22,168 nt of DNA, from the IMG/VR virus record IMGVR_UViG_3300028388_003059, positions 1-22,168 of that record; one strand, given 5' to 3'. The notes below the pieces were generated by a model. That model was not told the origin of the DNA, did no database searches, and worked only from the letters and a program-made list of their open reading frames with translations. A program made the translations under genes and the position numbers. Origin of the DNA: a virus. The first letter of the stretch is position 1, and every line of letters starts with the position of its first letter. This document shows positions 4,080-22,108 of the stretch, piece by piece.

Positions 4080-7000
4080 TCATTGCGTGATGCGCCGGGC
4101 GACGACCTGGACCGACTCGCTGCGCGGGTTGCGCACGATCCAGCGCCAATACCGGGCGCGGTAAGTAATCTCGAGCAGCGAGTCGCCGCCGGTATAATCG
4201 GTTTGATCCGCGTTCCAGACCCGTTGCCGCGCTGCGGTGAGCAGCCCGTCATCGTCTGGCGTCACGGCGCCGAGGTCGTCCTCGAGCCACTCGGTGGTGA
4301 GCACCTCGTCGACCGGCCGCGCGGTGCTGCCGCTGCCGTCGATAAATTCGACCGTCTCGGTGAGCTCCTCATAGTTATCGCCGCCAAAGGGCTCGATGCT
4401 CACCCATGAGCCGCCGGTATGATCGAGCTCGAACTGCAGCAGATCAGACCAGGGCGAGAGATAGAGCCGCACCTCGATCGTGTGCTCGTCGATCTGCTCC
4501 TGCACCAGGTTGGTGTTGTCCTCGGCCGTCTCCTGGTCGATGACCACAAATTTGTTGTAGCCCTTCTGGATATCGCTCGACTCGCTGGTCGAGGAAAAGC
4601 CGGAAAGATCGTCAATCGTGGCCGCCGGGTCGATCGTGCGCCAGCTCGGGATCGAGGTCTCATACTCCCAGACGACGCGCAGCGTATCACCCGCCGGCGT
4701 CGGCTGCAGCTTGGCCTCGTCGGGCAGGATGCGCTGCATGATCTCGGCCGGCGTTTCGTTGCTGGCCTCGATATCGTCGAGCCACTCATCGGTGATCTGA
4801 TAATCGATGGTGACGCCGTAGGGATCGGCGAGCGCCTGGAACATGGCCGAGGCCCAGGCCGAGTCGAGCTTGCCATTGACGGGTGCGGCGTGCGGGGCGC
4901 CGAGCCGTTTTACCTTGCTGTGTCCCTCGACCGTATAGACGAGCGAGCCGAATCCGCTCGACTCATTAAAGCCGCCCTCGACCTCGAAATGGTACTGCTG
5001 CCCGCCAAAGGTGAGCACGATCGGGGCGAGATCCTCGGCGAGCTGCGCCTGCTCCTGGCGTTTAAAACTCATCGAGATCGTGCCGTAAAAGCGCGAGCGC
5101 CGATAATCCCAGTTGATCACGTGCGGGCTCACCGCCTGGCCGGCCAGGCTGAGCTCATAGACAAAGTCGTGCCGGTGCGCCGGCGGGTCGCCGGGATCTC
5201 CCGCCCGCGCCGCCGGCAGCCCCTGCAGCAGATAGGGCTGCAGCAGCGAGGTCGTGAGCTGCCGGTGCTGATTAATGTCGTAAGCCTGCAGCAGCGCGGC
5301 CGCGAGCTGCGCGCCGCCGAGGCCGTAGCGCTGGATCAGGGCCGCCTCGAGGATCGCCGGGAATTGATAGGGCTGCTCGAGCCAGGCCATGAGCGCGCCG
5401 CTGTCGCCATATTTCTGCTCGAGCCAGGTTTTGAGTTGAGCCACGTCGCCGTAGCGCTGGATCAGCCAGGCCTTGAGCTGCCGGACGTCGCCGTAATATT
5501 GCACCAGGTAGGTCTGCAGCAGAAACGAGTAGGGCTGCTCGAGGTAGCTGGCCAGGGCGATCGCCATGCCATAGGGCTGCTCGAGCCAGGCGCGCATAGG
5601 GTCGGTCAGGTTGTAGGGCTGCTCGAACCAGGCGAGCAGGGCCACGCCACCGGAGCTACTGCTATAGGCTGACCAGGTGAGCAGATTGTTTAATAGTGAT
5701 TTCTGCTCCAAAACCATGTACGCATCGGAGCGTGCAACCGTTGAGAGGCGAAGCTCCGCCATTGAGCCGTCGTAATTGTACCCCGACGCTGTCCAGTACC
5801 CTATGCGGCCGACACCGGCCCCGATATTTGGGGTGCTTGCTGAGCCAGAACCTGCGACCTCGGCGCCATCTTTAAACAGCGTCGTGGTCGTGTTGATAAC
5901 ACCGGCGGCTTTTGAAAAACCGATTGCCTGCCACGTGTCGTTTGACATTGAGCCAGTAGTCTCATTAAAGCTATTCCCGCCATTAAATTGTGCGCCGAAG
6001 GTTCCCGCAGCAATGCCCAGGCCAAAAGTCTGCAATGACGAATGGACACCAGTCGAAAAAATTGCCTGGAAGGCCGTAGCCACATTGTCGGGGTTGATAA
6101 GCGCCTGGATTGAGCCAGCGACATCGCCTGTACCAAGGCCGTGATTCGGGGTTGTAACATAGGCAGAGCCATTAAAATCAAGCCCCGTGCCGATATTTGC
6201 GTCAACCTCAGAAGCAATAGATATCGCCGTTTGATCGTTTTGATTTCCGGTTGAGTCTAGGCATTCGGCCGTACCATTGGCAAAATGATATACTCGGTCG
6301 TAGCCGTCATTCCAGACTTGCGCATGAGGTGAATAAGCGTCCATTCCTTTGAAATACAGGGCCTTGCCGGAGTAGCTTGAAAAGCCTGTAGCGGTTGCTT
6401 GGCCGGTGTCCACTTGTCCACTCTTTTCATAGCCGACATAGTTTGTAGCAGTACCCCCGCTGTCATCTATCGGGGCTTGGCTTGTGCTGGAATTGAGCGC
6501 GAAAATGTACGACTTGCTTGGGTCTATCTCAACGTCAATAACATCTGATTCTTGGCCGTCACTTGTTACTGTCCATGTGCCACTGCCGCCAGATGTTATC
6601 TGTGATATTGTGGCCTCAACCATGTTTGGGCCGCTGCCTGTCCATTCGCCAATATGGCAGCTTGTTACTACATAATCGGTGTTGTTGTGCATGAACTTGA
6701 ACTTGACCTTGTTTCCGCTGAAGTCTATCTCAGCAGCGGGGATTAACAGTCTATGACAATAGGTGTTCCAGCCTGTGCCCTCTCTGTTGCTGGCAAGTTC
6801 ATTTTCAATAAGCGACCCAACATGATCAGTTGTAAGCCCGACATAATCATCATTATCGTCCTGTGTCTCATCCCAACTCAGCACGCCAGTAACGCCACCA
6901 GATGCGGTGATTGAGGGGATTTTGGTGTAAAGGACGCATGACGGCGGTTCATCTTCAAAAAATGCCAGCTCGCGCACGATGCAGTAGCCGCCGCCTCGGT

Positions 7001-8108
7001 TTGCGCTTACATTGACTCTATAATAGCGATATGCAGTTGTGTTGCTGACCTCGTGATATACCCACGCCGTGGTTTGTGACGCATCTGTGACAGTAAGCAG
7101 GGTCGTCCAGCTTGACGCATCGTTCGAACCTTCTAAAGTAAAATCCTTTGCCGCATTGGCGGTTGATTCGTTGTAAATGCCGAGCCGAGTTACCGTCTTT
7201 TCGTTGCCGCTGCCGTAATCCTTGCCTACGTAACCGCTGCTCAGCCAGCCACCGCTGTATGCGTACCACGAACCGGTGGCGTTGGGATCGGTTGTTGCAC
7301 CATCAAAGGCCCTGCCGGTATAAGACGGGTGCTCCTGCCCATAAGTGCTTCCCGCGGTGCGGTCAATCTCGACATAGCCGCCGCCAGGATTCCACTCATT
7401 AGGGCTTACTTCAACAGGACATTGGGTGCCGCCTATGTCTACTGATAGCTTTTTAATCGCATTGCGAAGCTGAATGCCTGATACGCCGTATACACTGCCT
7501 GCTGACGTTGAGCCGCCCCACGACACATCATCAGCGGTGTCACCACTTTGCTGCCCTTGGCCGATAATTGCCGACAAGCTCCCCGGCGAGCCGTTTCTGC
7601 TAGGGTTGCCCGCTGTTGTGTGAAAGCGCACGACCAGCTTGTCGGCTGGCTTGAGAGGCAAGTTTATCCAATCAGACCATGCGCCAGAGGTGCCAGAGCT
7701 GCCGCCGCTTGTGCCGCTTTGTGTGACCTCAACCGGCGTCGAGACAAAGTCGTAATCATCACTTGAATCGGCCACCTGTGCGTAGCACTTTGTCCAGTTC
7801 CATGACGTCCCTGTCGAGTACTCGTCGAACCACAAGCGGAACTGGCCAGCAGTGAAATCCAGCCCGATATCGGTATCGTCAAGATCAAAGACGATGGTCA
7901 GCGTGTGATTAGTGTAGCCGCTGGAGGCTGCGTCAAACGCATAGGGCGTCTGCTCTGCGGTTTTACCGAGCAGATCAGCGTGAAAATCCAATGTGCTTGG
8001 AATCGGCAGCGCCAGCGGAAAATCAGACACATCGGCAGACACATCGGCCGCATCGATTTCAAACTCATATTTATTGGCGTCTGCTATTGTGCCCGGATCA
8101 AAAACCAT
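4080..8108 (-). CDS. Large modular tail/adhesion protein with baseplate-hub-like C-terminus
   Basis: The 1342-aa protein is a chain of modules. Residues 1-230 are beta-rich and start like a DUF2341-type domain (VSDFPLALPIP). Residues about 235-388 resemble an F5/8 type C (discoidin) domain: a Trp-rich start, KDFTLEGSNDASSW, then YRYYRVNVSANRGGGYCIVRELAFFE. After a linker, residues about 600-806 are LamG/concanavalin-like, opening with VWNDGYDRVYHF and DSTGNQND. Residues 824-962 hold ten short tandem repeats. Residues about 975-1342 look like a phage baseplate-hub or tail-tip protein (SNETPAEIMQRIL then GDTLRVVWEY). Discoidin and LamG domains bind sugars or surface ligands, so this is probably a tail-tip protein that carries host-recognition modules. 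GC content is visibly lower from about 5680 to 8108 than in the C-terminal third, implying module acquisition. It starts in a TAATG overlap with the 134-aa gene. Confidence 0.9.
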   Translation of the reverse strand: MVFDPGTIADANKYEFEIDAADVSADVSDFPLALPIPSTLDFHADLLGKTAEQTPYAFDAASSGYTNHTLTIVFDLDDTDIGLDFTAGQFRLWFDEYSTGTSWNWTKCYAQVADSSDDYDFVSTPVEVTQSGTSGGSSGTSGAWSDWINLPLKPADKLVVRFHTTAGNPSRNGSPGSLSAIIGQGQQSGDTADDVSWGGSTSAGSVYGVSGIQLRNAIKKLSVDIGGTQCPVEVSPNEWNPGGGYVEIDRTAGSTYGQEHPSYTGRAFDGATTDPNATGSWYAYSGGWLSSGYVGKDYGSGNEKTVTRLGIYNESTANAAKDFTLEGSNDASSWTTLLTVTDASQTTAWVYHEVSNTTAYRYYRVNVSANRGGGYCIVRELAFFEDEPPSCVLYTKIPSITASGGVTGVLSWDETQDDNDDYVGLTTDHVGSLIENELASNREGTGWNTYCHRLLIPAAEIDFSGNKVKFKFMHNNTDYVVTSCHIGEWTGSGPNMVEATISQITSGGSGTWTVTSDGQESDVIDVEIDPSKSYIFALNSSTSQAPIDDSGGTATNYVGYEKSGQVDTGQATATGFSSYSGKALYFKGMDAYSPHAQVWNDGYDRVYHFANGTAECLDSTGNQNDQTAISIASEVDANIGTGLDFNGSAYVTTPNHGLGTGDVAGSIQALINPDNVATAFQAIFSTGVHSSLQTFGLGIAAGTFGAQFNGGNSFNETTGSMSNDTWQAIGFSKAAGVINTTTTLFKDGAEVAGSGSASTPNIGAGVGRIGYWTASGYNYDGSMAELRLSTVARSDAYMVLEQKSLLNNLLTWSAYSSSSGGVALLAWFEQPYNLTDPMRAWLEQPYGMAIALASYLEQPYSFLLQTYLVQYYGDVRQLKAWLIQRYGDVAQLKTWLEQKYGDSGALMAWLEQPYQFPAILEAALIQRYGLGGAQLAAALLQAYDINQHRQLTTSLLQPYLLQGLPAARAGDPGDPPAHRHDFVYELSLAGQAVSPHVINWDYRRSRFYGTISMSFKRQEQAQLAEDLAPIVLTFGGQQYHFEVEGGFNESSGFGSLVYTVEGHSKVKRLGAPHAAPVNGKLDSAWASAMFQALADPYGVTIDYQITDEWLDDIEASNETPAEIMQRILPDEAKLQPTPAGDTLRVVWEYETSIPSWRTIDPAATIDDLSGFSSTSESSDIQKGYNKFVVIDQETAEDNTNLVQEQIDEHTIEVRLYLSPWSDLLQFELDHTGGSWVSIEPFGGDNYEELTETVEFIDGSGSTARPVDEVLTTEWLEDDLGAVTPDDDGLLTAARQRVWNADQTDYTGGDSLLEITYRARYWRWIVRNPRSESVQVVARRITQ
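5223..5639 (-). repeat. Array of ten degenerate ~14-residue coding repeats
   Basis: Within the 1342-aa tail protein (residues 824-962) a unit of 12-16 residues recurs ten times. Its core is a small or aromatic pair, then L-x-Q-x-Y, then often G, and a Leu before the next unit. Examples of cores are AWFEQPYN, AWLEQPYG, SYLEQPYS, TYLVQYYG, AWLIQRYG, TWLEQKYG, AALIQRYG and TSLLQPYL. The Gln and the Tyr are invariant, while the residue between them varies (P, R, K, Y, A). At DNA level the copies are degenerate, so the conservation is at protein level rather than from a recent duplication. The array lies between the LamG-like module and the hub-like domain, so it could be a rigid or elastic spacer. 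Function unknown. Confidence 0.92.
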
Positions 8109-10257: not shown

Positions 10258-11412
10258 TTATGGGCAGGGAATTTTCACTGGATATTCTTCGAGGATCTCG
10301 TCGGTGCAGCGGTGCCGCTTGACTTTTAATCGATAGCAGTCGCCGTATCCCTCGCGATCGTCGTCACCGCTCGAGCTCGAGCTGCCGCCATCATCGTCTG
10401 AGCTGCCGGTGCCGCTGGTTTCGCTGTATTCATCGCAGCCGGGATAGCGGCCGCTGCCCTCACAAACCGGGCACTGACACGAGACGGTGGCGGACTCCTG
10501 GCAGCCGTCGATCAGGCCATCGCCCCCGCAGAAAAAGCATAAACAGGGATCGTCGGTAACCACGTCGACCTCGCCGTCGCCGTCAAAGTCATAGGAATAG
10601 GTGCCGCCCGGCACGATCACCGTGTTGCCATTCTCGTCAAGCATATACTGCAGGCACTCGCGCGCATCCTCGGGGATCTCGATGGCGCACTCGGCGAGCA
10701 GCGGATCGCCCGACGAGTCGAGACAAAAGCCGCGAACCGTGCAATCATAGACCTCGTTGAGATCATAAATATCGCTGCAGTTTACCCGCGGCGGAATAGC
10801 GATCGAGTAGCTGTCGTACTCCTCGCGGAATTTGAACAAAAAGGTGCCGAGATAGGGCTGATCAAAGTAGATGGTTTGTGTCTCGGCATCCCACTCGCCG
10901 CCCGACGGGGTGCGCGTCTGGCGGCCGTCGGCCGTAAAGGGCATCCCCTCCCAGACTCCGACTTGGCCATTTTGACGCAGCAGCTCCTCGACCCTATGGT
11001 CGCGGATCTCGATCTTGTCAGTCATCGGCACGTCAATGTGCAGCTCGGCATCGTCCTCGACCCGGCGATTAAAATGCAGCAGGCCATAGGACTCGATCAC
11101 CGTCGGGTCGAGGTGGTCGTGGCTCTTGATCACTTTGAGCCCGATCATAATGGTCGAGCCGCTGGCCTCGTCGCAGGGTCCATAAAACTGATCCTTGAGC
11201 TGCTCGATCAAAATCGTCGAGTCGATCGCCTGATCAGAGCTGTAAATCCTGTCGTAATAACCCTCGGCGCGCACCCATTGCCAAAAAGCAAAATCGTTTT
11301 TGGGCTCCTCGTCGACGAGCCGGTCCGCCTGGATTATGGTAATCCACTCGCCCCCGCCAGATGAGCCGGCCGGGCTGACTTGGCCCGATAACTGGTGCGT
11401 CTTATCCGCCAT
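10258..11412 (-). CDS. Tail-region protein with DnaJ-like zinc knuckles and a Ca-loop-like motif
   Basis: The 384-aa protein has a 210-residue N-terminal part without recognisable motifs (starts MADKTHQLSGQVSPAGSSGGG) and a Cys-rich C-terminal part. DFDGDGEVD at 275-283 resembles an EF-hand or dockerin-type calcium loop. It is followed by two CxxCxGxG knuckles, CFFCGGDG (292-299) and CPVCEGSG (314-321), plus C304, C312 and C326. In DnaJ-type proteins four such motifs form two zinc sites; two motifs could make one. A Ser/Asp/Gly low-complexity linker (about 333-357) and a short basic end with two more Cys follow. It lies 4 bases upstream of the Cys-rich fibre gene. A metal-stabilised structural protein or fibre-assembly factor is inferred. 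Confidence 0.86.
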   Translation of the reverse strand: MADKTHQLSGQVSPAGSSGGGEWITIIQADRLVDEEPKNDFAFWQWVRAEGYYDRIYSSDQAIDSTILIEQLKDQFYGPCDEASGSTIMIGLKVIKSHDHLDPTVIESYGLLHFNRRVEDDAELHIDVPMTDKIEIRDHRVEELLRQNGQVGVWEGMPFTADGRQTRTPSGGEWDAETQTIYFDQPYLGTFLFKFREEYDSYSIAIPPRVNCSDIYDLNEVYDCTVRGFCLDSSGDPLLAECAIEIPEDARECLQYMLDENGNTVIVPGGTYSYDFDGDGEVDVVTDDPCLCFFCGGDGLIDGCQESATVSCQCPVCEGSGRYPGCDEYSETSGTGSSDDDGGSSSSSGDDDREGYGDCYRLKVKRHRCTDEILEEYPVKIPCP

Positions 11413-12436: not shown

Positions 12437-12799
12437 TCATCTCTCCAGTATATAAATTGATCCCTGCTCGAGGTCGTCGCCGACCCGTTCCACATGCTCG
12501 AGGGGCGCGGCGATATCGACCTGCTCGACGAGCACGTGTGCAAAGGTGCCGCGCGGGTGTACCAGAGTCACGTCCAGGCCCTCGAGGGCCTGGACCTGGT
12601 CGCCCTGGTCGGTGGTAAAAAAACCATAGAGCTCGAGGCGCCGACCGCCGTCGAGCTGGTGCACCAGGGTCTGATTTATGCCGCCCTTGGTGCGCTGCTG
12701 TTCTATTTGTACGCGCGGCGCCCGTAAATTTCTCAGCAGCAGATCATCAGATAAGACGACGCCGCCGAGCGTCACGGTGCCGGTACATTGCAAAGGCAT
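12437..12799 (-). CDS. Small distal-tail-like protein
   Basis: The 120-aa protein is made mostly of beta strands. It begins MPLQCTGTVTLGGVVLSDDLLLRNL, a strand-turn-strand pattern typical of tail-tip adaptor proteins, and includes RRLELYGFFTTDQ and TLVHPRGTFAHVLVEQV. It comes immediately after the tape measure (TGATG overlap), the position usually held by a distal tail protein in siphoviruses, and one base before the next gene. It is shorter than classical Dit proteins (about 200 aa or more), so the assignment rests on position and on the beta-rich sequence. Confidence 0.85.
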   Translation of the reverse strand: MPLQCTGTVTLGGVVLSDDLLLRNLRAPRVQIEQQRTKGGINQTLVHQLDGGRRLELYGFFTTDQGDQVQALEGLDVTLVHPRGTFAHVLVEQVDIAAPLEHVERVGDDLEQGSIYILER

Positions 12800-13887
12800 C
12801 AGCTCGAGCCCTCCATTGCCTCGCGCAGGATGCGCGTTAATCGTCCGGCCTCATCCTCGGCCGCGTAGACTGTAGCCGCCTGGCCACTGCCGGCTGAGCG
12901 CAGCACAATCTCGTGGTAGCCGCTCACCTGGGCCCCGCCGACGGCACCGCCGGCGGCCAGCATCTGCGGACCCGGCAAGCGCGGCACGGCGTTGATCGCG
13001 CCGCCGAGCTTGCGGCGGATTGCATCAGCTCCCAGCTTTTTCAGCAGCCCCTCGATCACCAGATCATAGCGGCCGGCGTGAAAGGCGCGGACCACCGGCA
13101 GCGTGGCGTGGCGCACCCGATATTTGTCCAGCATGTATTCGCCATCTTCGGCCACCACATGGCGCCGATCGCCGCCGCCAAAGCCAGGGAAAAAGCCGCC
13201 AGACAGCATCGAGCGCAGGCTCACCTGGCCGCCGGTGGCGAGCGGCAGCACCGGCCCGCCGGTGGCGAGCTGCTGCTGGTTGTTGGTGACCACGTCGACG
13301 ACCATCTGGTGCGGGCTGCTGAGCCAGGCCTCGATTTTGTCAAACTCGAGCGCGGCTTTGTCGCCAAAATCCTCGAGCACCTCTTTTAAGGTCTCGCCCA
13401 GGATCTCCGAGGCGGCGGTGATATTCTTGACGCCGCCCTCGGCGACGCCGGCCTGCTCGGCCAGATCAGAAAGGGTGACTTCCTTGAGCTTTTCGGCCGC
13501 CTCGTGGGCTGCCTGCTTTTGCGCTTTGAGCGCATCGATCGCGAGCTCGCCGCTTTCCTCGACGCCGGCCATGGCGACTTTGAGCGCCTCGCCTTTGGTG
13601 ACCAGGATCTGGTCGCCTTCTTTTATTTCGGTGTTGAGCGCGGCAAATTTTTCCTTGGCCAGATCGGCATTTTTGACCGCCGCATCAAAATCGCCCGATT
13701 TCATCGCCTGGCGCGCCGCCTCGCGATACTCCTCGGCCTCTTTTTTGAGATCTTCCCAGGCGGCCTTATCGCTCATCTCTGAGCGCGACATCGAGCGGAG
13801 CTGCTCGTCGAGGCTCTGCTCGCGGCCGACGATATCCTGGTGCAGCCGGGCATACTCGTCGGAATATTCTTTAAATTTGCGCTTCAT
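12799..13887 (-). CDS. Tape measure protein, C-terminal part (out of frame with the N-terminal part)
   Basis: This 362-aa frame opens at ATG 13887 but stays open and coiled-coil-like upstream to about 13965 (TTEQERAAQKAAEAT), just where the preceding tape measure frame stops. No ribosome-binding site precedes 13887. Residues 1-200 are helical, Ala/Lys/Glu-rich coiled coil; after about 210 there are the Gly-rich repeats LATGGPVLPLATGGQV and then GFGGGDRRHVVAEDGEYML, the typical end of phage tape measure proteins. The frame lies +1 relative to the upstream gene. Joined, the protein would be about 880 aa. So this is the C-terminal half of one tape measure protein, broken by a frameshift or made by an unusual event, rather than an independent gene. 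Confidence 0.88.
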   Translation of the reverse strand: MKRKFKEYSDEYARLHQDIVGREQSLDEQLRSMSRSEMSDKAAWEDLKKEAEEYREAARQAMKSGDFDAAVKNADLAKEKFAALNTEIKEGDQILVTKGEALKVAMAGVEESGELAIDALKAQKQAAHEAAEKLKEVTLSDLAEQAGVAEGGVKNITAASEILGETLKEVLEDFGDKAALEFDKIEAWLSSPHQMVVDVVTNNQQQLATGGPVLPLATGGQVSLRSMLSGGFFPGFGGGDRRHVVAEDGEYMLDKYRVRHATLPVVRAFHAGRYDLVIEGLLKKLGADAIRRKLGGAINAVPRLPGPQMLAAGGAVGGAQVSGYHEIVLRSAGSGQAATVYAAEDEAGRLTRILREAMEGSS

Positions 13888-13966: not shown

Positions 13967-15421
13967 TCAGTCGTCGACCATTTTGTCGGTCCCGTCTTTG
14001 ACCGCCTGGGCCTGGGCCTCGACCGAATTTTTTGCCGCGCCGACCAGGACGTTATAGCCCGCGCGCACCGTGCCGGTGCCTTTGGTATAGGTGTCGGTGG
14101 CCTTGTCGTAATCGATGAGGCCCTCTTTGTAGGCCTGGCGCAGCTCGCGAACCGACTTGAGCTCTTTGCCGGCCGCCTCCGAGGCGCGGGCGAGCCGGTC
14201 CTCGTAGCGTTTACGCACCTCGGCGCCTTTTTCCAGCGAGTCGGTCAGGCCGCTTTGATGATCGGCCAGCTTTTTAAGCCCTTTCCAGGCGAGCGGGGCG
14301 ACGGTGGCGATCGCGCCGATGGCGAGCCCGAGCGGGCCCATGAGGCCAAGCAGCGCCCGGCCGCCGACGGCCGCACCGCGAAACAGCGCCGGCAGCTTGG
14401 CCAGCCAGGGGCCGAGCTGGCTGCCGGTCAAGACCTTGCTGGCCGCGTTTAATCCTTTAAAAATTCCCTGCAGGGTGCCGATCGCCTTGCCGACGATGGC
14501 GAGCGCGAGCGCGATTTTCCCTGCCCAGACGAGCCAGCCCTGATTTTCGACGAGGAATTTTCCGACCGCGGTCGCCGCACTGGTGACCGCGGTGGCCAGG
14601 TCGCCGATCTCCTCGGCGTTGTTCGCCACGTAGGTGGCGAGCTCCTGCATGGCCGCGGCCAGATCCTCGTGCTCGGTGATCGCGTCGTGCAAATTTGCTT
14701 TGGCGAGCGCATAAGCGCCGGCGAGCGTATTCACCGAGTCGGACGCCCGGCCGGTCGAGCCCTCGGCCTGCTCGAGCAGCACATTGTAGCGCACCTGGGC
14801 CTTTTCGATATCGGTGAGATCCTTCCAGGCGCCTTTCAATGCGCCCTGGGCCTCGTACCAGCCCTTTACATAGGTTTCGTTGAGGGTGAGCCCGAGCCGC
14901 TCGGATGCCTCGGCCTCGCCCCTGAGCGCAGCCGTCACCCGCTCGACCGAATCGGCGAGATCGAACTTGCCGGCGCCCAGATCGCCGGCCGCGACAATGA
15001 CCTTTCTCATCTGCTCCTCGTTCAGGCCGAGGCGCTTGGTCATGTCCAGGGTGAGGCTGGCCGCTTCGTTGAGCTCCGATTTTGAATAAATGCGCAGCTT
15101 GTCGCTGAGCGTGTCGATCGTGGCGCCCCAGGACTCGAGGCTGCCGACGTTTGAAAATTGACGATTTGCGGCCTGCAGCGAGCTCTGCAGATTAAACAGC
15201 GCGGTATTGCCCTCGGTGATAATCCGGCTCACCGAGCGCACCGTCTCAAAGCCGGCATAGGCGCCGATCAGGCCGGCGACCTGGCCCCTCATCTGGGCCA
15301 TGAGCCGGTTGCCGTGGCCGATTTCTTTATTGAAGGCGGCCAGGCCTTTCTGGGCTTTGGTAAAGGTGCCCCAGCCGCGGGTGCTGGCTGAAAGAACTAT
15401 CTGGATTGCGCGCTTTGACAT
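13967..15421 (-). CDS. Tape measure protein, N-terminal part
   Basis: The 484-aa product starts MSKRAIQIVLSASTRGWGTF and is mainly helical, with hydrophobic stretches around residues 300-318 and 360-390, common in tape measure proteins, which occupy the tail tube, set its length and help DNA entry. It follows the tail chaperone, the conserved position for this gene. The start is 7 bases after the end of the frameshifted chaperone product and has no strong ribosome-binding site, suggesting coupling. It ends DKMVDD then TGA at 13967 without the usual Gly-rich C-terminus, which is found instead in the +1 frame downstream (to 12799). Confidence 0.92.
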   Translation of the reverse strand: MSKRAIQIVLSASTRGWGTFTKAQKGLAAFNKEIGHGNRLMAQMRGQVAGLIGAYAGFETVRSVSRIITEGNTALFNLQSSLQAANRQFSNVGSLESWGATIDTLSDKLRIYSKSELNEAASLTLDMTKRLGLNEEQMRKVIVAAGDLGAGKFDLADSVERVTAALRGEAEASERLGLTLNETYVKGWYEAQGALKGAWKDLTDIEKAQVRYNVLLEQAEGSTGRASDSVNTLAGAYALAKANLHDAITEHEDLAAAMQELATYVANNAEEIGDLATAVTSAATAVGKFLVENQGWLVWAGKIALALAIVGKAIGTLQGIFKGLNAASKVLTGSQLGPWLAKLPALFRGAAVGGRALLGLMGPLGLAIGAIATVAPLAWKGLKKLADHQSGLTDSLEKGAEVRKRYEDRLARASEAAGKELKSVRELRQAYKEGLIDYDKATDTYTKGTGTVRAGYNVLVGAAKNSVEAQAQAVKDGTDKMVDD

Positions 15422-15428
15422 AGTCGTG

Positions 15429-15883
15429 TTAATCCATCCGGTTGTCGGCCGCGAGCTGCTCGGCCAGATCGTCCAGGGCGTCTAAGAATGTGCTAAATCC
15501 GTAGAACCAGACGCCGTGATGCCCTCGCTCAATAAGCCGGAAAGCGCCCCGCTTGATTCGCTGAGTAGTAAGGCGCTCGCTTTCATCGTGTCCGCCATCG
15601 TTTTGATGGCCCGCGCTAAAAAAGGGTTGAGCTCCTGGGCCACCTTGTAGAGCTGCTCGAGCTCGCCATGGCCCACGCCCTCGGTGAGCAGCGCTTTGAG
15701 CGGCTCCTTGAGAATCGCGTCCATGATAAACTCGGGCATAAATTCGTAAGCGTTGGCCAGATCGAGGTCGGTCGGGTCGTCGATCTCTCGCGCCCGACCG
15801 ACCAGCTCGATCATGGTGGCCACGTCGAGCTCGTGCACGGTGACCTCGCGGCCGCCGATGACGTGCTTTTTCGTTTTCAGCAT
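15429..15883 (-). CDS. Tail assembly chaperone, -1 frameshifted long form (GT-like)
   Basis: In frame 0 the gene reads from ATG 15883 to the TTA codon at 15619-15617 (89 codons). A -1 shift there gives an open frame of 62 more codons, ending in TAA at 15431-15429, for a 151-aa protein. The extension ends in a convincing protein sequence (GVWFYGFSTFLDALDDLAEQ, then LAADNRMD), with aromatics and an amphipathic helix, not random shadow coding. In lambda, gpG and the frameshifted gpGT bind the tape measure and tube subunits during tail assembly; both size and position (between tube and tape measure) agree here. The long form ends 7 bases before the tape measure start. Confidence 0.88.
15482..15883 (-). 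CDS. Tail assembly chaperone, short form (G-like)
   Basis: The unshifted product is 133 aa: MLKTKKHVIGGREVTVHELD, then helices (MIELVGRAREIDDPTDL, FIMDAILKEPLKALL) and a Ser/Gly/Leu-rich end terminating in TAG at 15482. The N-terminal beta hairpin plus helical body is typical of tail assembly chaperones. The ribosome-binding site AAGAGGA lies 10 bases before ATG 15883. As in other siphoviruses the short form should be the major product and the frameshifted form the minor one. It would act in the cytoplasm during tail assembly and not remain in the virion. Confidence 0.88.
   Translation of the reverse strand: MLKTKKHVIGGREVTVHELDVATMIELVGRAREIDDPTDLDLANAYEFMPEFIMDAILKEPLKALLTEGVGHGELEQLYKVAQELNPFLARAIKTMADTMKASALLLSESSGALSGLLSEGITASGSTDLAHS
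15594..15610 (-). promoter_or_regulatory. Frameshift-stimulating stem-loop
   Basis: The minus strand reads GCCATC (15610-15605), loop AAAAC, GATGGC (15599-15594): a perfect 6-bp hairpin placed 6 bases after the slippery heptamer. Spacing of 5-9 bases between slip site and structure is typical for -1 frameshifting. A longer pseudoknot with downstream sequence is possible and was not modelled. Confidence 0.7.
15617..15623 (-). promoter_or_regulatory. Programmed -1 frameshift slippery heptamer T TTT TTA
   Basis: Read on the minus strand, the codons CCT TTT TTA contain an X XXY YYZ heptamer (T TTT TTA) exactly in frame 0 of the tail chaperone gene. Both tRNAs can re-pair one base back. The shifted frame is open from here to TAA at 15429. 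Six bases downstream lies a perfect 6-bp stem with a 5-base loop, the usual stimulatory geometry. Confidence 0.88.
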
Positions 15884-15898
15884 GATCTGGGGGTCCTC

Positions 15899-16666
15899 TT
15901 AGACGGGCACGCCGTCGATTCTGGCCGGTGAATCCTGGCCGGACAGGGTTTCAAAACTCATATTAAAGACGATCGGCTCGCCCTCGCTGCCTTCTTCCGA
16001 GATGAAATTGATCTCGGAATCGGTGGCAAGCACGGCGGAATCGATCTCGAGCACATAGTGCTTGTCTCGATACTCGTCATACAAATGGGCGAGGATCTCG
16101 ACGCGGATCTGCACCGAGCTGCCGACCTTGACCTGGTAGCCCTCCTCGGCCGCGTAATCAAACGACACCAGGGTGTCGACCGTACCGGCCGCGAGCGCGC
16201 CGGCAGCCACTGAGGTGATCAGGCCGAGCTTTTCGTCGACCTCGTAATCGGTGCCCTCGGTGTAGGTGGTGCCCGCCGGGTCCGAGGTGACCACGACATT
16301 GTCAATGTCGCGCTTGGTGAGCGCGGCATATTCGCCGGGCTCAGGCATGGTGATTTCCTCATCGCTCACCGAGCCGCTGCTGCCGGTGCGCTCGGTGGCC
16401 GAACCGGAAAGCCCAAAGGCGAGATTTTTGGCATTCCACTCTTTAAGGGTGAGCTTGCCCTCGATCACGTCGATCTCGACCTTTGAGGCGATGACCTGGC
16501 CGGCGCGTTCCACCTGGCGGCTTTTCACCTCCATTTTTTTGGTCGAGACTCTCATGGTCAGAGGATAGGCGTCGCCGACCTGGAAAAATTTGCCGGTCGC
16601 GACTCCGCTCTCGTTTACCGGCCGCATAAACACGGTGCCGGTGCCAGAATAAATTTTAAAAGACAT
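15899..16666 (-). CDS. Major tail tube protein
   Basis: The 255-aa protein starts MSFKIYSGTGTVFMRPVN and is beta-rich, with the pattern AYPLTMRVSTKKMEVKSRQV (a strand-turn-strand segment) and a later basic-acidic strand series (QVKVGSSVQIRVEILAHLYD, VFNMSFETL). Residues about 120-165 (PAGTTYTEGTDYEVDEKLG) form a typical beta-repeat insertion seen in tail and fibre proteins. It lies between the tail completion protein and the chaperone, the standard position for the tube gene. A strong AAGGAG ribosome-binding site 8 bases before ATG 16666 fits high expression. Self-assembles into the hollow tail tube. Confidence 0.88.
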   Translation of the reverse strand: MSFKIYSGTGTVFMRPVNESGVATGKFFQVGDAYPLTMRVSTKKMEVKSRQVERAGQVIASKVEIDVIEGKLTLKEWNAKNLAFGLSGSATERTGSSGSVSDEEITMPEPGEYAALTKRDIDNVVVTSDPAGTTYTEGTDYEVDEKLGLITSVAAGALAAGTVDTLVSFDYAAEEGYQVKVGSSVQIRVEILAHLYDEYRDKHYVLEIDSAVLATDSEINFISEEGSEGEPIVFNMSFETLSGQDSPARIDGVPV

Positions 16667-18855: not shown

Positions 18856-19287
18856 CTAGTCGACGACCTTCACGCCAGCGCGGAGCTGCGCGCGCTGCGC
18901 GGCCGGGTCGAGCTTGTTAAAGTCGGCCCGCTTCATTTCGCTGGCGCCGTCGCCCGGTACTGCAGGCGGCACGATCTCGCCGGCCTCGTCCTCGAGCTCG
19001 GCAGCGGCCTCGCCTCTGAGCTCTTGCTCGGCTTTGACGATGGCGAGCGCGGCATCTTCGCCGGTCGATTCGCCGTCGGCGGCCATCTCCTCGATCAAGG
19101 CCTCATGGCCCGGCACGAGCTGCGCGCGCACGTCGGCGACGCGCTCCATTTCTTCCTGGCGGCCATATTCGACGCCCTTTTCGTAGGCATCATCGGCCAC
19201 TGCCAGGTCGACCTTGCCGTCGGTCGCCGCGGCCTCGATGGCCTCGACGAGCTCGGGGTGGTCGGCTTTCAATGTTTCAAGATTCAT
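18856..19287 (-). CDS. Nested in-frame scaffold protein (lambda Nu3-like)
   Basis: Inside the protease gene and in the same frame, the ATG at 19287 is preceded by AGAGGA with a 4-5 base spacer, an excellent ribosome-binding site that has no reason to be there for the long protein alone. The 143-aa product begins MNLETLKADHPELVEAIEAA, is acidic and helical (GRQEEMERVADVRAQLV), has a flexible Pro/Gly segment, and ends with a basic helix (KRADFNKLDPAAQRAQLRAG) that could bind coat protein. This mirrors lambda, where Nu3 scaffold is made from an internal start in gene C. Confidence 0.82.
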   Translation of the reverse strand: MNLETLKADHPELVEAIEAAATDGKVDLAVADDAYEKGVEYGRQEEMERVADVRAQLVPGHEALIEEMAADGESTGEDAALAIVKAEQELRGEAAAELEDEAGEIVPPAVPGDGASEMKRADFNKLDPAAQRAQLRAGVKVVD

Positions 19288-20187
19288 ATCGTCCTCTTGT
19301 ATGGTTGGTGACGTGGCGGCAGCACCGGCCCCTCGTCGGGTTTGGGGGTTGCGGGCCATTGCCCGCGCCTCGTCTATCGCCTCGGCCAGGGTCGAAACAC
19401 CGTCGACCAGGCCGGCCTCGATCGCTTGCTGCCCGGTAAAGATCCGGCCGTCCGCCATGCGCTCGAGCACCTCGCCGGTCTCGACGCCGCGATGAGTCGC
19501 GACGGCGTCGACAAACACGGAATAAATATGATCGAGCTGCTCTTGAATGTTGGCGCGGCCCGCTTCGGTGAGCGGCGCGTGCTGGCTGGCGATGCGTTTA
19601 TAGGTGCCGGCGGTGATCTCGGTGATCGCGATGCCGGCCTTTTTCTCTTTTTCGCTGGTGTCAATGTGTTTGGTGACGACGCCGATCGAGCCGGCCATCA
19701 CCACGTCGCTGCTGATCAGCACCTTGTGCGCGGCTGAGCCGATCCAGTAAGCCGCCGAAGCGATCATGCCGTCGGAAAAGGCGAGAATGGGCTTTTTGTC
19801 GCGGCCCCGATAGATCTGCTCGGCGAGCTCGGGGGTGCCGTCGACGCCGCCGCCAGGCGAGTCGATGGCGAGCACGATGGCGGAGACGTCGCGATCCTCG
19901 AGCGCCGCGCCCAGGTCGCGGGCGACCAGATCAGTTGAAACGCCGCCGCTGATTTTGGTAAACAGGTTCATGCGCTTAGAAATCACGCCGTCGAGCTGAA
20001 AAAGCGCGACCCCGTCGATCACCTGGTAGGGCTTGTGCTGATTGTCAAAGGTGAGCCCGGTGGACGCCTGCAGCGCCTCGAGATCGATTTTCTCGCCGCG
20101 CATGTGACGGCCATAAATGGCGTGGATCTCCTCGAGCATCTCGGGGCGGATCGCCCAGGGGCCGCTGATAATGTCGATCAGTCGCAT
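18856..20187 (-). CDS. Prohead protease (S49 family) fused to scaffold
   Basis: From ATG 20187 the protein is 443 aa (GAGGAG ribosome-binding site 10 bases upstream); the frame is open further right, inside the portal gene, but that part is Arg/Ser/Pro-rich shadow. Residues 55-290 are an S49 (SppA, lambda gpC-like) protease: AIDSPGGGVDG at 107-117, the nucleophile Ser144 in MIASAAYW, AGSIGV at 165-170, and a candidate general-base Lys197 in AGTYKR. The last 143 residues are acidic and helical and form the scaffold, also made separately from an internal start. It cleaves scaffold during head maturation. It lies between portal and coat genes, as in lambda-type head modules. Confidence 0.92.
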   Translation of the reverse strand: MRLIDIISGPWAIRPEMLEEIHAIYGRHMRGEKIDLEALQASTGLTFDNQHKPYQVIDGVALFQLDGVISKRMNLFTKISGGVSTDLVARDLGAALEDRDVSAIVLAIDSPGGGVDGTPELAEQIYRGRDKKPILAFSDGMIASAAYWIGSAAHKVLISSDVVMAGSIGVVTKHIDTSEKEKKAGIAITEITAGTYKRIASQHAPLTEAGRANIQEQLDHIYSVFVDAVATHRGVETGEVLERMADGRIFTGQQAIEAGLVDGVSTLAEAIDEARAMARNPQTRRGAGAAATSPTIQEDDMNLETLKADHPELVEAIEAAATDGKVDLAVADDAYEKGVEYGRQEEMERVADVRAQLVPGHEALIEEMAADGESTGEDAALAIVKAEQELRGEAAAELEDEAGEIVPPAVPGDGASEMKRADFNKLDPAAQRAQLRAGVKVVD

Positions 20188-20194
20188 CTTTTTT

Positions 20195-22108
20195 TTACTC
20201 CTCGCCCTCGTCCTCGAGGGGCTGGTCGGGGTCGTTGTCGGTGGTATCGCCGGCAGCCGCGGCCGCGGCCTCGGCCTCTTTGCCGCTGGCCAGGGTGACG
20301 GGCCGGCGGGTGCCGCCGTCTTTATCCCAGGCCTCGGCGACGGGCGCAGATACGGCGGGCAGCCCGAGGCGATCGCGAAAGTGATTCTCGTCGTCGACCT
20401 GGGGGGTGAGCGTGCCGGACCGGACGCCGATGCCGTAGGTATCCATTTTTGAGCGAATGAGGTTGACGTCCTCGAGCTCGTTGTCCTGGTCCGGCACGCC
20501 GCCTTGGGCGCCGCCCTGGGCGGCCGCCTCGGCCGCCGTCTCGTCAATGCCGGCAGCTCTGAGGATCTGTCGCTCTTTGATGAGCTGCGGCAGCTTATCT
20601 TCCCAGGGCGTCCCGGTGAGCTTGCGGCTCTCCTCGTCGAGCGTGGTGATCTGCAGCTCGACGCGCTTGGCCGCGGCGTTGATCTCTTTGAGCGGGTCGA
20701 TCTGGTTTTGAGCATCACCGAGCCAGGTGGTGCCGCACCAGGCGGCCCTGATCAGGGGATCGGCAAAAAAGCCGGGGGCGGAAAGCCGGCCGGCGGCGAC
20801 CGCCTCGGCGAGCACCGCCTCATAGACGGGCTGGCAGAGCTGCACCACGAGCCAGTGCCGGCGGCGCATGAAATAATCCCAGGCCTCTTCGAGGGCAGCG
20901 CGCGCTGCCGAATAACTGCTGGTAAAATGCTTGACCAGGATCTCGAAAGGCAGCTCGAGCGCCATGCCGATCTGGCGGGTGATGGCGATAAAAAACGGAT
21001 CAAAGGCGGTGTTAGGGCGATTCGGGTTGACCGTCTCGACCTTTTCGCCAGGTAAAAGGCCGACGACCGAGCCGTAACCGAGCTCGACGCCGGTGGTGTC
21101 GGCCTGCTGGGCCGGATCGCCTTCGGGATTATCGGCGGTCGGGGCCGGGCCGAAAGAGGCCTGGCCGTTTTCGTTGGTGACAAAGACGGTGAGCATCCCG
21201 GTCACGACCGCGGCCATCACCTCGGCGTCGGTGTAGCGGCCGAGCTGCTTAATGGTCTCGACCACCGGGGCCAGATAGGGCACGCCGCGGCTCTGATTCG
21301 GCCGCTGTTTATCGTAGAGATGCAGCACCAGGGGCGCGCCCGAGCTCGAAAAGGCTTTGAGCTCGGTCCAGCTAAACTTGTCGCGGCTCACGAGCCGGCT
21401 GCCGGGGTGCTGGTTGAGCACCTGATAGACGACCGGGGCACCGGTCTTTGCGTCGCGCTTGACGCCACCGGCGAGGGTGTCGCTGTCGGGCACGTTGTTT
21501 TTGTTGCAGATCCGCGCCGCCTCGATGAGCTGCAGCTTGAGCTTGTACGGGCTGCCGGCCCGCTTAAAGCGCGGCATATTGACGAGCACGTCGCCGCCGT
21601 CGAGCACCGATAAAAAGGCGAGACCCTGCAGCAGGGAAAAGGGCAGGGTACGCTCGACGTCGATCTCGCGGGTCTCGGTGGCGAGCTTGAACTCGCGCTC
21701 GGCTTGACGTTCCCAGGCGTCGGCCGCCTCGTCGGTGAGCTTGAGCACGTCGCGGTCGAGCTGGCTTTTGACTTTGAGCCCGCTGCCTACCACCTTGGTG
21801 ATGTTGGTGCGGATCGCGCCGCCGGCGATCGGGTTGTTTCTGAAAAGATGCTGGCTCTCGGCTCTCAGGGTTGAGAGATCGGGCAGGGTCGCCGCGTCGG
21901 CACTCATCTCGGGCTTGCTGCCGAGCTGGTTGGCGCGGCGCGTGCGATCGGCGCCGGTGTAGCCACCGGTCAGGGCCATGCGCAGCCGGGCCTGATAACG
22001 AGCGGCGCCGGCGGTCGGAGAAAAATAATTGATCACCTGGTCGGTCAAGGTGACGGGCACCTCGATCTCGCGACCGGCGATCGTGACTTTTTTATTAAGT
22101 CGACTCAT
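20195..22108 (-). CDS. Portal protein, lambda gpB-like
   Basis: The 637-aa protein contains the recognisable blocks of the lambda-type portal family: RARNNPIAGGAI-like LFRNNPIAGGAIRTNITKVV, GLKVKSQLD, the EREFKLATE/LQGLAFLSVLDGGDVLVN block, LIEAARICN and the HFTSSYSAARAALEEAWDYF segment in the C-terminal half. It forms the dodecameric ring through which DNA enters and leaves the head. The C-terminus (about 600-637) is a low-complexity Ala/Glu/Asp tail. The start at 22108 has a GAGGTGAT ribosome-binding site and overlaps the previous gene stop by ATGA. Its stop is 7 bases before the protease start. Confidence 0.94.
   Translation of the reverse strand: MSRLNKKVTIAGREIEVPVTLTDQVINYFSPTAGAARYQARLRMALTGGYTGADRTRRANQLGSKPEMSADAATLPDLSTLRAESQHLFRNNPIAGGAIRTNITKVVGSGLKVKSQLDRDVLKLTDEAADAWERQAEREFKLATETREIDVERTLPFSLLQGLAFLSVLDGGDVLVNMPRFKRAGSPYKLKLQLIEAARICNKNNVPDSDTLAGGVKRDAKTGAPVVYQVLNQHPGSRLVSRDKFSWTELKAFSSSGAPLVLHLYDKQRPNQSRGVPYLAPVVETIKQLGRYTDAEVMAAVVTGMLTVFVTNENGQASFGPAPTADNPEGDPAQQADTTGVELGYGSVVGLLPGEKVETVNPNRPNTAFDPFFIAITRQIGMALELPFEILVKHFTSSYSAARAALEEAWDYFMRRRHWLVVQLCQPVYEAVLAEAVAAGRLSAPGFFADPLIRAAWCGTTWLGDAQNQIDPLKEINAAAKRVELQITTLDEESRKLTGTPWEDKLPQLIKERQILRAAGIDETAAEAAAQGGAQGGVPDQDNELEDVNLIRSKMDTYGIGVRSGTLTPQVDDENHFRDRLGLPAVSAPVAEAWDKDGGTRRPVTLASGKEAEAAAAAAGDTTDNDPDQPLEDEGEE

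Follow-up and report, generated by a model that had tools for sequence, protein, structure and literature searches.

A single gene in the tail module of this virus very probably encodes two proteins, a 133-aa tail assembly chaperone and a 151-aa −1 frameshift fusion, in the manner of lambda gpG and gpGT; we assign this reading a probability of about 0.93. A −1 frameshift in this gene had been proposed in a preliminary description of the DNA, and comparison of the sequence with that of relatives strongly supports the proposal. The window is the whole stretch of DNA analyzed, 22,168 nucleotides of IMG/VR virus record IMGVR_UViG_3300028388_003059. Its tail-module genes, and the elements of the predicted frameshift, are the following:

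15899–16666, minus strand: major tail protein, upstream context (phrog_807, E = 1.7e-35)
15482–15883, minus strand: 0-frame product, 133 aa, gpG-like tail assembly chaperone, with the predicted slip at codons 88–89
15617–15623, minus strand: slippery heptamer T_TTT_TTA, in register as X_XXY_YYZ
15429–15617, minus strand: −1 extension, 62 aa and TAA, gpT-like (profile of the relatives' extensions, E = 2.1e-15)
15474–15536, minus strand: conserved extension motif LIERGHHGVWFYGFSTFLDAL, with G32, H33, and Y39 the same in all 15 sequences
13967–15421, minus strand: tape measure protein, first ORF, downstream context (phrog_1686, E = 1.3e-8; TMP_3, E = 6.5e-8)

Tail-module context and the 0-frame protein

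Profile matches of the neighboring genes give the order major tail protein, chaperone, tape measure, so that the window gene lies between the major tail protein and the tape measure, as lambda G/GT does. Family-profile searches, including PHROG, gave no match for the 133-aa protein or the extension of the window. Among the 15 aligned family members, 12 match phrog_7608 (function unknown) and five match phrog_1442 (tail assembly chaperone). An AlphaFold2 model of the 0-frame protein is confident to about residue 100, with confidence dropping after the slip at residues 88–89. The structural matches include HK97 gp13 (2ob9), which aligns with residues 1–87, the part that precedes the slip, with a weak Z score of 4.1 over 66 residues (rmsd 3.3), and several tail assembly chaperones, all weak, are among the matches in a viral structure library. 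Foldseek alone on the PDB gave nothing below E = 0.001, and profile searches of PDB sequences returned chance-level matches only.

The tape measure looks split between two minus-strand ORFs, 13967–15421 and 12799–13887, with the break at 13967–13887. After the ...GAC GAC TGA of the first ORF, the +1 frame carries directly on with plausible tape-measure protein (EQERAAQKAAEATAAAQRKALG...), and the tape measure of relative L005 is a single 627-aa ORF. The likelier cause of the split is an indel of one base in the sequence, and the less likely one a further frameshift (+1). Elsewhere on the minus strand, a 1342-aa ORF (4080–8108) contains a series of short imperfect repeats of the type LxAWLEQPYG, and a 384-aa ORF (10258–11412) has a cysteine-rich part (CFFCGGDGLIDGCQ...CQCPVCEGSG) that resembles a DnaJ-type zinc-binding domain. 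The listed GTG start of the minus-strand ORF 18856–20718 is too early, its protease-like part apparently beginning near MRLIDIISGPW; its C-terminal part is scaffold-like with a possible internal start (MNLETLKADHPELVEA), comparable to the Mu-type nested protease/scaffold genes.

The slippery heptamer and the open −1 frame

On the minus strand, the 0 frame of ORF 15883–15482 reads ...GAG CTC AAC CCT TTT TTA GCG..., which places T_TTT_TTA in frame at 15623–15617, to the base as first described. Synonymous-codon resampling with the codon usage of the window gives a T_TTT_TTN heptamer in this gene with P = 0.007, and any X_XXY_YYZ heptamer with P = 0.17. From 15617, the −1 frame runs for 62 stop-free codons to a TAA at 15431–15429, 7 bases before the tape measure ATG at 15421, again as described, and the predicted 151-aa fusion consists of the first 89 residues of the chaperone and the 62-aa extension. 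Taken alone, an open −1 frame across the overlap is no surprise (P = 0.34, synonymous resampling), and stop codons are absent from this frame upstream of the slip as well, as far as 15950. Without the relatives, the heptamer, the hairpin, and the open frame would be suggestive; the relatives make the case decisive.

The open frame at P = 0.34 and the presence of other heptamers in the window would fit a coincidence, in a GC-rich gene, of an open frame with a heptamer that only looks slippery, a reading to which we give almost no weight; the −1 protein conserved among diverse relatives (E = 2.1e-15 for the held-out profile) already refutes it. Another such heptamer, an in-frame T_TTT_TTT at 12623 with a 61-codon −1 frame, is found in the minus-strand ORF 12437–12799 that follows the tape measure, and is probably there by chance.

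A scan of the extension for start codons found no ATG, GTG, or TTG in the −1 frame, an upstream start is absent from the ORF list, and the only start-like codons of the extension are ATC, ATT, and CTG; separate initiation is therefore unlikely. It is thus very improbable that the extension is translated on its own, as a small protein made from an internal start or by re-initiation, even with the ATG that in L005 overlaps the 0-frame stop just ahead of the motif.

The heptamer and the extension are conserved among relatives

A scan with the fusion returned one close relative, L001 (71%), which shares the heptamer, hairpin, and extension, and a contig scan using the fusion alignment found no further relatives. 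A tape-measure alignment (conserved segment A4) recovered contigs of Desulfobacterota, of related genomes, and of IMG/VR viruses. Near-duplicates (L017, L019, L021, L023, L024, and L027) were left out of the counts, as were L011, which begins at a contig start and is without the chaperone region, and L016, which is not a tail module. T_TTT_TTN is found in frame at the equal protein position in 12 other tail modules, mostly of Desulfobacterota phages or prophages, and two relatives carry another heptamer at the equivalent site:

T_TTT_TTN relatives: L001, L005, L007, L008, L009, L010, L014, L015, L018, L020, L025, L026
C_CCT_TTC relatives, equivalent protein site: L012, L022

The slip in the relatives sits right after a conserved [EVL]-N. 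All 14 other tail modules have a −1 extension, of 53 to 109 aa, with the motif LIxxGHxxVWxYGxSxFLxAL. This motif lies mostly or wholly past the 0-frame stop in L005, L007, L009, L014, L022, and others, so its conservation is that of the −1 frame protein and not of the 0 frame. The extension is coding sequence: a held-out profile, from which the window and L001 were excluded, finds the −1 frame of the chaperone gene in the window at E = 2.1e-15, with no other significant match among 485 six-frame window segments, and also matches phage F10 (9.8e-13) and ctgwJ031 (7.5e-10), neither of which was used to build it. The extensions of the window and L005 match each other by BLASTP at E = 4e-9, and an AlphaFold2 model of the extension has two helices (pLDDT 83). 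The preliminary description had called the −1 product plausible protein and had staked the frameshift on homologs that keep both the extension and the heptamer; the held-out match and the shared motif bear out the first, and the heptamer class, its position, and the extension are all kept in the 14 other tail modules. L013 is the exception, with a weak extension match (E = 0.014) and without a canonical heptamer.

The slip codons are far more slippery than the peptide and the codon usage demand: if the 16 loci were independent, the product of the chances would be about 1e-18, a figure to be read as a guide only, since the loci share ancestry and every long open stretch was used to derive the codon usage. 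Identities of the 0-frame proteins within the family go down to 14%, from which we infer that most pairs should have reached saturation at synonymous sites. A dN/dS comparison of the overlap between the window and L001 gave no decisive signal; the stretch past the 0-frame stop is too short and too variable for it.

A second possible slip site overlaps the first:

15620–15626, minus strand: C_CCT_TTT (L012 and L022 carry C_CCT_TTC and no U6)

Slippage mainly at this site (15626–15620) rather than at T_TTT_TTA would give a fusion of equal length with a single difference, Phe at the position where the other has Leu or Phe. Both sites lie within CCCTTTTTTA or CCCTTTTTTG in the window, L001, L014, L018, and L020, and L012 and L022 have C_CCT_TTC alone, but T_TTT_TTN is kept without the preceding CCC in L005, L007, L008, L009, L010, L015, L025, and L026, so that the U6 heptamer is the commonly kept site and predominant use of C_CCT_TTT is unlikely. 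The T run, missing only from L012 and L022 and extended to nine T in L009, might instead cause RNA polymerase to slip, yielding mRNAs with a base more or less and a fusion translated from the altered transcripts. Six-base runs are short for RNA polymerase slippage, the C_CCT_TTC relatives are without a long run, and the X_XXY_YYZ register and downstream hairpins suit ribosomal slippage, so we regard the transcriptional route as improbable and the ribosomal −1 shift remains the preferred reading. The nine-T slip run of L009 (700–711, a Geobacteraceae contig) recurs in L019, a viral contig, and is long enough for transcript slippage too.

Candidate stimulators of the frameshift

Two elements flank the heptamer of the window:

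15594–15610, minus strand: hairpin with a 6-bp stem and 5-nt loop, 6 nt past the heptamer, likely stimulator
15632–15636, minus strand: AGGAG, Shine-Dalgarno-like, 8 nt before the heptamer, candidate upstream stimulator

The 6-base spacer (GCGCGG, 15616–15611) and the perfect 6-bp stem with its 5-base loop (GCCATC-AAAAC-GATGGC, 15610–15594) have the coordinates originally given for them. RNA folding, suggested as a check on the hairpin, gave a mixed answer, in that the hairpin itself stands out from dinucleotide shuffles (p = 0.015) and the longer 63-nt stretch downstream of the slip folds no better than its shuffles (z = −0.01). Clear hairpins 5 to 8 nt past the slip are found in the window, L001, L005, L010, L022, and L026 (13 bp); that of the window is kept in L001, and L005 has a different stem of 9 to 10 bp at equal spacing. 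No perfect stem follows the slip in L007, L009, L014, L018, L020, or L025. With near relatives excluded, the combined p for hairpins across the loci is about 3e-4. The frameshift had been styled a textbook case; conservation upholds the frameshift, and the epithet is too strong for a hairpin that is modest and missing in several relatives.

A Shine-Dalgarno-like stretch (AGGAG or GAGGT) is present about 10 nt before the slip in many relatives. We considered it as a dnaX-like upstream stimulator and rejected it, as its strength is already accounted for by codon usage and the E-V-N peptide (combined p = 0.19).

Named phages and known frameshift systems

A tblastn search of phages with the window fusion gave no match, and named phages were reached through relative L026. 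Pseudomonas phages F10, MD8, and LESphi3, whose proteins are distant (about 35% identity to L026), have an equivalent layout, with T_TTT_TTC and a homologous extension that ends 1 to 2 nt before the tape measure. The F10 extension matches the profile at E about 1e-12, and the shifted product predicted for F10 or MD8 would include this region:

GHHHVLEYPWSLF region: predicted shifted product, F10 / MD8

In the records of all three phages the extension is left unannotated, in agreement with the earlier expectation that ordinary annotation would miss the long product. No description of the site was found in papers on MD8 or in those containing TTTTTTA, within the open part of PMC.

Like lambda G/GT, the window gene has a −1 shift predicted near its 3' end that would give a minor longer form; the slip site in lambda is G_GGA_AAG. 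The in-frame slip site of the window, leading into an overlapping −1 frame, is kept in relatives, and the extension is conserved as protein. In contrast to this likeness, no sequence similarity to lambda G/GT was detected, and the window extension is short, with its GHxxVWxYG motif. In lambda, both forms bind the tape measure through their G part, and the tail tube protein is bound by the T domain (PMC5009743). U_UUU_UUA, the slip site of HIV, is far less shift-prone in E. coli than A_AAA_AAG (PMC5009743).

A T-run slip site in the tail chaperone is also a feature of P2 E/E+E' and of Smp131: the slip of P2 is T6G, and that of the P2-like Smp131 and its relatives T7G or T7C (PMC3931495). Those phages differ in having a contractile P2-like tail. 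The window has no match to Phage_TAC_7, the Pfam family of P2 E, and one relative matches it weakly (E = 0.0021). A T TTT TTC slip has been reported in PaMx73 (D3112 group, core ORFs 35/36) (PMC4378225). D3112 itself has T TTT TTC and a −1 frame that ends just before the next tail gene; its extension has no match to the window-family profile, the resemblance being limited to LVxxGH.

No functional description of the extension family was found in the libraries searched, which for papers were the open part of PMC. The extensions could, at roughly even odds, represent an undescribed family of frameshift-encoded tail domains in phages of Desulfobacterota and Pseudomonas, marked by LIxxGHxxVWxYGxSxFLxAL and a U6 or CCCUUUC slip, absent from public annotation and with GH..W.Y as the binding site for the major tail protein.

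Implications for tail assembly

What the sequence shows is the elements, their conservation, and an extension that codes for protein; slippage in cells, how often it happens, what the hairpin does, and the partners that the two forms bind are inferences. Most ribosomes would complete the 133-aa chaperone, and a minority would shift by −1 at T_TTT_TTA, with the hairpin 6 nt beyond it as stimulator, to make the 151-aa fusion of 89 residues and the 62-aa extension. If the two forms act as gpG and gpGT do in lambda, the short one would coat the tape measure protein, and the extension with GHxxVWxYG would recruit the major tail protein, giving a tail tube of the right length.

Both the frameshift mechanism and the U6 slip are already known in phage tails, where U6 is not unusual, and the picture of tail building is unchanged. 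The present genes extend the frameshifted tail chaperones by a well-supported group, in which the U6 slip site persists and the hairpin varies. With the motif and the profile, long forms that lack annotation would be found in many phage records, those of named Pseudomonas phages among them.
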